A stretch of 64,000 nucleotides of DNA from Prosthecobacter sp. SYSU 5D2 (GTDB lineage: Bacteria; Verrucomicrobiota; Verrucomicrobiia; Verrucomicrobiales; Verrucomicrobiaceae). The notes beneath the pieces were generated by a model. It saw nothing but the letters and a program-made list of their open reading frames with translations, had not been told where the DNA came from and did not search any database. Of this stretch, positions 11,509 through 13,295 are shown piece after piece (position 1 is the stretch's first letter; each line of letters starts with the position of its first letter). A program made the position numbers and the translations under genes. The DNA lies in assembly GCF_039655865.1 (NCBI RefSeq), contig NZ_JBBYXL010000006.1:248001-312000 (forward strand), given 5' to 3'.

Positions 11509-11955
11509 ATGAACATCCCAAGCCGCCTCCAGCGCGCACCGCGCCACGCCTTCACCCTCATTGAAATCGTCATCGTGCTGACGATCATCTCCATCCTGGC
11601 CGCCGGCTCCATCTACATGCTGAAAGGCAACGTGGATGTGGCCAAGGAAACTCGGGTGGACGGGGACCTGCAAAACATCATGACGCAGATTCAGCTCTAT
11701 GAAGCCCGCAACATGCGCCCGCCGACCACAGACCAGGGCCTGAAGGCGCTGGTGGAGCGCCCCACCACCGAGCCGCTGCCGGAGAAGTGGACCGCTCTCA
11801 TGGAAGAAGTGCCGAAGGATCCTTGGGGCCAGGAATACAAGTACCGCTACCCGGCGCAGAAATCCAAGAAGTCCTATGACGTCTGGTCCATCGGCAAAGA
11901 CGGCGCGGACGGCACCGAGGATGATGTGGGGAACTGGAAGAATGTGGTGAAGTGA
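11509..11955 (+). CDS. gspG: Major pseudopilin GspG
   Basis: GspG is the main subunit of the T2SS pseudopilus. The 148-residue protein has a short basic leader ending in an atypical HA-FTLIEIVIVLTI junction, where Ala replaces the usual Gly before the cleavage site and Glu is at +5. A long hydrophobic helix and the C-terminal GspG fold follow, with PPTTDQGLKALVERP, DPWGQEYKYRYP and the calcium-loop region DGADGTEDDVGNW. The Ala at -1 is tolerated by some prepilin peptidases. The stop lies 9 bases before the first copy of the short repeat. Confidence 0.95.
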   Translation: MNIPSRLQRAPRHAFTLIEIVIVLTIISILAAGSIYMLKGNVDVAKETRVDGDLQNIMTQIQLYEARNMRPPTTDQGLKALVERPTTEPLPEKWTALMEEVPKDPWGQEYKYRYPAQKSKKSYDVWSIGKDGADGTEDDVGNWKNVVK

Positions 11956-11964
11956 CTCCTTGAA

Positions 11965-12047
11965 ATGACGAATGACGAATGACGAATCCAGAAAGGAGGA
12001 AGTGAACGGTGAGCCGGATGAGTCTGGTTCATCGTCATTCGGCATTC
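11965..12047 (+). repeat. ATGACGA repeat element, copy 1
   Basis: This begins with three tandem 7-bp units ATGACGA (11965-11985), then ATCCAGAA, AGTGAACGG and a GGTTCATCGTC block, and ends with TCGTCATTCGGCATTC, an imperfect inverted copy of the start. Because the unit is 7 bp, the three copies put an ATG and an overlapping TGA in all three frames. The GspG-like gene starts at the second unit. Copy 2 at 12499-12659 shares the same order of blocks. Confidence 0.85.
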
Positions 12048-12502
12048 AGACTTCTTCAGGCTATGTGACTGAAGAATCATCCAATCCCGACAAGCGAGGC
12101 GTCAACCGCACCAACAGATTGATTCGGGTCTTTCTTTGGCTAGCCATTCTTTTCCTGATTGTGGTGGTGCTTATAAGGCCCATTGGCCCGCCTCCTGAAG
12201 GAGCGGCCGAAGCCTCAGCGGCCGAGGCCCAGATGAACACGATCGCTGTGGCCCTAACTCAGTATAAAACGCTGAATCGCACCCTGCCTACCACTGAGGA
12301 AGGGCTGGCCGCTCTTGTTCAACCACCCGCCAACGCCCGGTCTCAAAAGAAATTGGCTGAAGCCGCGGCCCTCCGGGATCCGTGGGGCAATCCTTATCTA
12401 TACCGCCATCCTGCAGTGAGAACTGATAGGCCTTTTGACCTGTGGTCCTCCGGACCTGACGGAAAAGATGGAACCGAAGATGATGTCTGGGGTTGGAAAT
12501 GA
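11972..12502 (+). CDS. GspG-like protein lacking a prepilin leader
   Basis: The C-terminal half of this 176-residue protein is clearly paralogous to GspG next door (PTTEEGLAALVQPP, DPWGNPYLYRHP, SGPDGKDGTEDDVWGW). The N-terminus differs: there is no G/A-FTLIE cleavage motif, and a plain membrane segment near residues 50-67 (VFLWLAILFLIVVVLI) replaces it. Residues 1-25 are encoded by the repeat and share the VNG...SGSSSFGI pattern with the next gene. The start may be ATG 11972 or a later internal codon. It is probably a membrane-anchored T2SS accessory protein derived from a gspG duplication; function unknown. Confidence 0.75.
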   Translation: MTNDESRKEEVNGEPDESGSSSFGIQTSSGYVTEESSNPDKRGVNRTNRLIRVFLWLAILFLIVVVLIRPIGPPPEGAAEASAAEAQMNTIAVALTQYKTLNRTLPTTEEGLAALVQPPANARSQKKLAEAAALRDPWGNPYLYRHPAVRTDRPFDLWSSGPDGKDGTEDDVWGWK

Positions 12503-12659
12503 CGAGTGACGAGTGACGAGTGACGAGTGCCAAATGACGGATGACGAATCCAGAATGAAGAAAGTGAACGGAGTATCGGAGTTTTCCGGTTCTTCTTCAT
12601 TCGGCATTCGTGTCCGCACGCGTGATCATTCGGCATTCGTCATTCGGAATTCGGCATTC
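12499..12659 (+). repeat. ATGACGA/GTGACGA repeat element, copy 2
   Basis: The longer copy opens ATGACGAGTGACGAG with several GTGACGA units, then ATGACGGATGACGAATCCAGAA, AAGTGAACGG, a CCGGTTCTTCTTC block, and ends with CATTCGGCATTC, CATTCGTCATTC and another CGGCATTC. The right-hand arms are the inverse of the left-hand units. It overlaps the stop codon of the upstream gene (TGA at 12500) and encodes the first 49 residues or so of the GspH-like protein. Confidence 0.85.
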
Positions 12660-13295
12660 TCTCACCGCCGGGGTTTCACCCTCGTCGAGATCGTCGTTTC
12701 CCTGACGATCATCATTATCATTGCGGCCGGGGCGGTTCCGATGTTTAAGGGGCTGCGGGAGGAGCAGCTGGCGCGGGAGCCGATCATTGAACTGGTGCGT
12801 CTGGCGAAGGAAGCACGCATCCGGGCGATGCGGGAGAAGCGGCCCTACCAGGTGGCTTTTTATCCCGGGGGATTCATGGCTTCACGGTACTTCAGCCCGT
12901 ATCTACAACTGGCGGAGCTGACGACTTTCCTTCAGGAAGGGGAGAGCGGGGTTTACCGGCTGAATCCGAATGCCGACGATGATGGGTCCGACTTGGACGG
13001 TGGGTCGGACAAAGTTTCCCAAACGGACCTGGCGCTGGCCCCAGAGGGTCCGCCGTTGAATGACAACTGGGAGGAACATTACCAACTGCCGCAGGATGCG
13101 CAGTATTCCATCAAGTACTGGCATGACATGGAGGAGACGTTCATCGAGGGCGAGGTGGTGAAGCTGTGGGTCTTTCAGCCTAGCGGGATCTGCCAGCCGC
13201 TGAAGCTGCACCTGGAGCGACCTAGCGCTGTGTTTGATGTGGAATTCGGCGCACTGACGGCTGACATCACCCGGGAGGTCATTGAACTGCGATGA
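12513..13295 (+). CDS. gspH: Type II secretion minor pseudopilin, GspH-like
   Basis: The mature part begins at the prepilin motif HRRG-FTLVEIVVSLTI near residue 54, with Gly at -1 and Glu at +5, followed by a long hydrophobic helix and a 190-residue globular domain. Position in the operon and the N-terminal region LAREPIIELVRLAKEARIRAM fit GspH. The upstream 50 residues are unusual for a pilin leader and come from the repeat element. Possible starts are GTG 12513, ATG 12534 and ATG 12555; none has a clear ribosome-binding site, and I give the longest. The leader is removed on processing, so the foreign N-terminus may be harmless. The stop overlaps the next gene by 4 bases. Confidence 0.8.
   Translation: MTSDECQMTDDESRMKKVNGVSEFSGSSSFGIRVRTRDHSAFVIRNSAFSHRRGFTLVEIVVSLTIIIIIAAGAVPMFKGLREEQLAREPIIELVRLAKEARIRAMREKRPYQVAFYPGGFMASRYFSPYLQLAELTTFLQEGESGVYRLNPNADDDGSDLDGGSDKVSQTDLALAPEGPPLNDNWEEHYQLPQDAQYSIKYWHDMEETFIEGEVVKLWVFQPSGICQPLKLHLERPSAVFDVEFGALTADITREVIELR

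Follow-up and report, generated by a model that had tools for sequence, protein, structure and literature searches.

Two arrays of 7-bp repeats lie between consecutive secretion genes in the window, the whole stretch of 64,000 nucleotides from Prosthecobacter sp. SYSU 5D2 that was analysed here, and each of them reaches into the open reading frame that follows it. The locus therefore raises the question of what such repeats do at a gene junction, and in particular whether the downstream proteins, a GspG-like protein and a GspH-like pseudopilin, begin inside them.

The two elements and their reading frames

A search of the window for unit dimers gave 8 matches (at most 1 mismatch), where shuffled sequence gave 0.02 on average, and the layout of two repeat elements between consecutive secretion genes, as given in a preliminary description of this DNA, was confirmed. 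Each element consists of a 5' arm and an inverted 3' arm with a loop between them; the inverted pairs I1 to I8 are present in the window, and the right arms are indeed inverse copies of the left ones. An 82-nt direct repeat relates the two elements to each other (11966-12047 and 12528-12609, 79%). The RNA folding scores compared with shuffled sequences were z -3.6 for element 1 and z -6.3 for element 2, against -0.3 for a control stretch. The positions of the genes, the arms and the possible start codons are given in Table 1. The GspG-like gene was missed by a codon-usage gene caller, which points to an atypical composition; it is possibly acquired or decaying.

Table 1. Genes, repeat arms and in-frame start codons at the locus (numbering of the window)
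Feature	Position	Strand	Remarks
gspG	11509..11955	+	Pseudopilin; Pfam N_methyl and T2SSG
Element 1, 5' arm	11965..11985	+	ATGACGA x3; 10 nt past the final base of the gspG stop codon
Element 1, 3' arm	12032..12047 (approx.)	+	TCGTCATTCGGCATTC; inverted pair I7, 94% complementary
GspG-like ORF	11972..12502	+	Pfam T2SSG domain, without N_methyl match
GspG-like ORF, in-frame starts	11972, 12002; GTG 12064		First two within element 1; GTG past element 1
Element 2, 5' arm	12499..12547	+	GTGACGA/ATGACGA units at 12499-12526 and 12534-12547; TGA 12500-12502 of the GspG-like ORF inside the first unit
Element 2, 3' arm	12592..12658 (approx.)	+	In frame within the GspH leader: HSAFVIRNSAF
gspH-like pseudopilin ORF	12513..13295	+	Mature part from FTLVE; F codon 12675
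gspH, in-frame starts	GTG 12513, ATG 12534, ATG 12555, GTG 12564		All within element 2

Since 7 leaves a remainder of 1 when divided by 3, each arm gives an identical reading in every frame. Whatever the frame, the 5' unit ATGACGA is translated as MTNDE*R and the 3' unit TCGTCAT as the stop-free SSFVIRH, which agrees with the earlier statement that the units hold a start and a stop in every frame. It follows from this frame-independent reading that the 5' arm terminates any frame and offers an ATG, and that translation in any frame can pass the 3' arm. A second heptad class, ACTGARN, behaves alike, with TEH*TLN on one strand and VQCSVFS on the other in all frames.

Distribution and placement of the family

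The two elements of the window belong to a family of heptad-built palindromes, (ATGACGA)n-loop-(TCGTCAT)n, that is dispersed in Prosthecobacter-like Verrucomicrobiaceae. The genome to which the window belongs contains 28 overlapping matches to the triple unit, compared with 0 in the reversed control. In 1.264 Mb of this genome (60 random 20-kb stretches and the window), 20 clusters were found, 11 of them two-armed, with a search at 3 mismatches that gave 2 chance matches in shuffles of 20 stretches, so that single short matches may be noise. The 5' arm precedes the 3' arm in every two-armed element. The triple unit occurs in 24 of the 56 genomes searched (own genome included), all 24 belonging to one of the 14 GTDB genera represented. 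Among 288 genomes sampled across the phylum, own genome included, 9 contain the exact sequence (GAATGAC)3; they belong to 7 of 151 genera. Relatives of gspH are carried by Prosthecobacter, Brevifollis, Verrucomicrobium and other Verrucomicrobiaceae, including two records titled Akkermansia.

Other heptad classes exist, and by eye some arrays shift from one class to another while the 7-nt period stays; the class ACTGARN has 11 matches in the own genome and 0 in the control. Near position 1500 of loci L346 and L350 the class changes within the run with the 7-nt phase held (in L346 from TCAGTCC to TCGTCAT). The pattern is also contained in 23 viral stretches. Locus L226 (G022:C35) has, at 1365-1521 of the reverse complement, a very long 3'-type array (about 157 bp) with the reading SSFVIRH whatever the frame; it runs in frame through an ORF which gives the impression of a collagen-like or phage-tail-like protein.

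To describe the placement of the two-armed elements, those of the own genome and of targeted loci in relatives were deduplicated into one set, of which 24 lie in tandem gaps, 1 in a convergent and 1 in a divergent gap, 3 are intragenic and 1 is at an edge. Tandem gaps thus hold 24 of 26 two-armed intergenic elements compared with 647 of 948 junctions in the own-genome sample (p = 0.004), a test in which the baseline comes from the own genome only, the elements come also from relatives, and the 3 intragenic elements and the edge element are left aside; the longer locus of the edge element, L003, is convergent, and its inclusion would make the count 24 of 27. The 5' arm starts at most 15 nt from the upstream stop in 21 of the 24 tandem elements and at most 30 nt from it in all 24, and in 9 the upstream stop codon is itself a TGA inside the array. 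On this placement at upstream stops the preliminary description was supported.

The two strands of the arrays are distributed differently at starts and stops. Among array-gene pairs for arrays of at least 24 nt, the stop-free strand is found at 32 of 36 pairs near starts (within -15 to +25 nt of the called start), and the stop-rich strand at 52 of 64 near stops; the genes were called by a simple hexamer caller trained in this analysis, with approximate starts and firm stops. For single arms only, the corresponding numbers are 21 of 23 near starts and 20 of 30 near stops, the latter a weak bias (p = 0.10).

Start of GspH and other N-termini

GspH of the window is the clearest case of a protein that appears to start inside an element. 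No ATG, GTG or TTG is present between element 2 and the start of mature GspH (FTLVE), so GspH should begin inside the element; judging from the sequence, its translation appears to start there, with the 3' arm serving as the prepilin leader. The GspG-like protein may start at the GTG at 12064, downstream of element 1. Of the earlier claim that both downstream proteins start within an element, the part on GspH, with all four starts inside, was upheld, and the part on the GspG-like protein is less certain, as this GTG lies after element 1.

To see whether the arrangement recurs, we read the stretch from the gspG stop to the FTL motif in 32 loci (own genome included), which are the pattern-recognised share of 77 gspH loci and are mutually related, not independent; in the other 45 the gspG end was not recognised or the sequence was a duplicate. 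This stretch contains 8 stops in the gspH frame compared with 55 and 53 in the other two, and is open in 26 loci in the gspH frame compared with 4 and 3. The last 110 nt before FTL fold with z < -2 in 23 of the 32 junctions, whereas the same threshold is passed by 2 of 32 for the gspH body, 5 of 32 for the gspG 3' end and 0 of 30 for the gspG leader. Over the full junction strong folding is seen in 24 of 32; the own junction, whose longer element is truncated by the 110-nt limit, scores z 0.4 there and -6.8 when taken at full length. The units at this junction differ among species, and strong folding nonetheless recurs. In the sole alignable junction group (11 sequences) covariation was seen in 1 of 16 pairs, the group being too conserved to judge, and the structural support at this junction therefore comes from the folding scores. 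A paralogous T2SS-like operon in G015 has elements at the starts of a gspH-like and a gspK-like gene (L157:296-408 and 1876-2019).

The similar N-termini of the two window proteins could be attributed to two separate insertions. The loops of the two elements resemble each other with z = 10.1, while the loops of nine other elements of the own genome score at most 5.1 against either of them; when those nine are compared with one another, z is above 3 in 6 of 36 pairs and reaches 6.3. From the gspG tail, which is also a conserved protein motif, 32 nt are repeated at an almost equal spacing (559 and 562 nt). The reading as two independent insertions was rejected on account of the loop match and the repeated tail, and the similarity is best explained, from these comparisons, by one element having been copied along with the gspG tail in the own lineage, so that the GspG-like ORF and GspH would carry sister copies. 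The distance from the FTL motif of gspG to that of gspH is about 490-640 nt in relatives showing both and 1124 nt in the own genome; the shorter spacing leaves no room in those relatives for a second gspG. The GspG-like ORF resembles another GspG family, with 50% identity to a locus of G000:C10, and those of its homologues elsewhere whose frames were read are pseudopilins of the ordinary kind, having a leader and FTLMEMM. A GATCCCGC-type motif recurs in the loops of L072, L092 and L107 (pairwise z 5.7-6.3) and may mark the core of a subfamily.

We then sorted the 84 three-prime arms that are directly followed by a sense gene into 51 in the UTR only, 21 ambiguous and 12 of N-terminal type. An arm was placed in the last class when the gene has an in-frame start ahead of the arm and lacks an in-frame ATG in the 75 nt behind it; three arms of this class are intragenic, which leaves nine cases. 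An ATG follows within 75 nt in 41 of the 51 UTR-only arms. Donation of an N-terminus is thus a minority outcome, because more 3' arms lie outside coding sequence. The nine cases are gspH, a cytochrome c, a PSCyt1/PSD protein, two orthologues of DsbD_N, a trypsin/PDZ protein, BatD, a caspase and one protein with no Pfam match over the cut-off. From the sequences, the N-termini of the cases other than gspH are likely to be read from the elements, and element-derived N-termini beyond the window, the DsbD_N orthologues included, accord with the preliminary description. Only gspH, L107 and L125 are free of any start codon from -8 to +59 nt; a GTG or TTG is present in this interval in the other six, and in our reading its use would remove most or all of the hydrophobic stretch derived from the arm.

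The nine N-terminal cases were all counted as exported. Among UTR cases the count was 13 of 41 (p = 2e-4), and among 956 genes the share was 33%. The hydrophobicity rule applied is crude and the 3' arm itself adds to its score, which makes the statistic partly circular. The rule is passed by seven of the nine; gspH and one DsbD_N orthologue fail from their shortest start and were counted by domain and position. Two of the nine are orthologues, and a count of 7 of 7 gives p = 0.001. Left out of the test were the 21 ambiguous arms, the 3 intragenic arms and those 10 of the 51 UTR arms that are not followed by an ATG within 75 nt. By eye, the dsbD_N junction shows an element-like signal peptide of FVI/FVL type in six genomes (L316, L321, L339, L340, L345 and L258); three close relatives have a heptad of TTTTCAG type there, and further genomes have leaders of the ordinary kind. 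In this comparison 8 of 30 loci gave no row, one of which, the G013 gene, was read separately as L258.

Insertion into a coding sequence was seen in ispG (GcpE), where an in-frame element is present in 3 of the 29 loci read (G011, G015 and G032) and 26 are without it; a thirtieth locus, L276, gave no row. These filled and empty sites agree with the earlier comparison to palindromic elements that insert in frame in other bacteria. The filled loci have about 16 extra non-element residues ahead of the element, and the comparison defined no target-site duplication; going by the sequences, the three insertions may share one event. In-frame 3' arms were also noticed just ahead of a transmembrane segment of an unassigned protein in two species, G010 and G032 (L166:1408-1438 and L244:1498-1528), and within a squalene-hopene-cyclase-like protein by Pfam (L130:1983-2013, gene on the minus strand).

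Possible explanations and published relatives

We consider it somewhat probable, from the sequences compared here, that these dispersed palindromes bridge neighbouring genes with two unlike arms. In the two-armed elements, which lie mostly between same-strand genes, the stop-rich (ATGACGA)n arm sits at the upstream stop and the stop-free (TCGTCAT)n arm before or within the next gene. If a hydrophobic N-terminus is tolerated by the protein that follows, translation appears to begin in the element, and the 3' arm would become a signal peptide or prepilin leader; elsewhere the arm remains in the 5' UTR. We infer that 7-nt slippage together with inverted copying gives rise to the units and makes them drift, and that the hairpin of the gspG|gspH mRNA may tune or couple translation of the minor pseudopilin. 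A stronger form, which we regard as unlikely, is a leader cassette independent of frame, whose 5' arm ends one gene and starts the next, whose 3' arm gives a signal-peptide core in any frame, whose insertion or growth at a junction would re-address a protein to export, and whose stem would tie its translation to the gene upstream.

That the arrays are neutral debris of polymerase slippage, which would expand 7-nt units anywhere, with survival only of copies at gene ends, tolerance of extra N-terminal residues by exported proteins and no function as RNA or protein, is doubtful but deserves consideration. Units are of different classes and change along a single array, a second class exists (ACTGARN, 11 matches against 0), non-coding 3' arms outnumber coding ones, covariation is nearly nil in the alignable junction group, and heptanucleotides, according to one survey, were in the majority of genomes the most abundant long simple repeats, for which slippage was proposed (PMC4679880). 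Plain slippage, however, yields direct arrays and not inverted pairs of constant arm order, and it does not account for 5' arms tied to a stop in 21 of 24 cases or for strong gspG|gspH folding that recurs with different units. The bias to tandem gaps, the placement close to stops and the folding in 23 of 32 readable gspH loci would also suit intercistronic hairpins acting mainly on mRNA, by protection of the 3' end or attenuation downstream, with coding of N-termini as a by-product. We think this rather unlikely, for an RNA-only role needs neither a gspH frame that, in 26 of 32 loci, is open from end to end of the junction nor the dominance of exported-looking proteins among the coding cases.

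Movement by a transposase (RAYT or other), as a MITE- or REP-type element with in-frame insertions like those of Rickettsia palindromic elements, seems to us unlikely. The palindromic shape, the dispersed copies, the filled and empty ispG sites and 10 Y1_Tnp matches in the own genome speak for it; against it, loops are mostly unlike (6 of 36 pairs above z = 3, highest 6.3) and no target-site duplication was established in ispG. Linkage to RAYT genes was rejected, as no array was present in the stretch read at 8 of the 10 Y1_Tnp loci. MITEs have a target-site duplication and fixed terminal inverted repeats; here inverted arms were observed, together with the extra non-element residues in ispG, and the filled and empty sites compared are from different species.

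We found no description of this family in the open-licence literature searched, and by published descriptions the family differs from each of its nearest relatives, namely the TAACTGA heptamers, the Rickettsia palindromic elements (RPEs), RU-2 and the REPs. The TAACTGA heptamers are direct repeats of Beggiatoaceae, Cyanobacteria and some Bacteroidetes (MacGregor 2015, PMC4679880). As described there, they are like the present elements in being 7-nt units near gene starts with one strand that stops all frames; they overlap the upstream stop codon in 13 cases, and their other strand gives the seven-residue cycle LSVISYQ (PMC4679880). They differ in being direct repeats (with one inverted case) without predicted folding, whereas the elements here are palindromes with z -3.6 and -6.3, and in having the stop-containing strand face the start, whereas here it is the stop-free strand (32 of 36) and the unit is ATGACGA (PMC4679880). 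A role as signal peptide, such as is proposed for the elements here, is not described in the available part of that report (PMC4679880).

RPEs are palindromes of about 100-150 bp found in frame in conserved genes, to which the ispG cases (3 of 29) are comparable, but they encode family-specific conserved peptides, whereas here the 7-nt arms are common and the loops mostly unlike (PMC10969869, PMC2229807). Yersinia YPAL/RU-2 and the enterobacterial RU elements are likewise stem-loop repeats and are reported to be co-expressed with upstream genes; YPAL/RU-2 has a fixed sequence of 168 bp and, unlike the present elements, is not built of heptads (PMC2759123, PMC2229807). GTAG and CGTC REPs are also short palindromes near gene ends, and GTAG REPs often provide a TAG stop, but they are 20-40 bp long with a fixed tag where ours are heptad arrays of variable length and unit, and GTAG REPs are linked to Y1 transposase genes, whereas 0 of 8 Y1_Tnp loci read here had an array (PMC3733652).

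The family suggests a route from a simple repeat to coding sequence, in which the arithmetic of a 7-nt unit makes one arm readable in any frame. Orthologous junctions with and without the repeat are natural cases for the origin and turnover of signal peptides and prepilin leaders, and they bear also on whether intercistronic palindromes couple translation. In such genomes, gene starts may be hard to annotate where they are held by the repeats, and in some exported-looking proteins the repeat itself may become the export signal.
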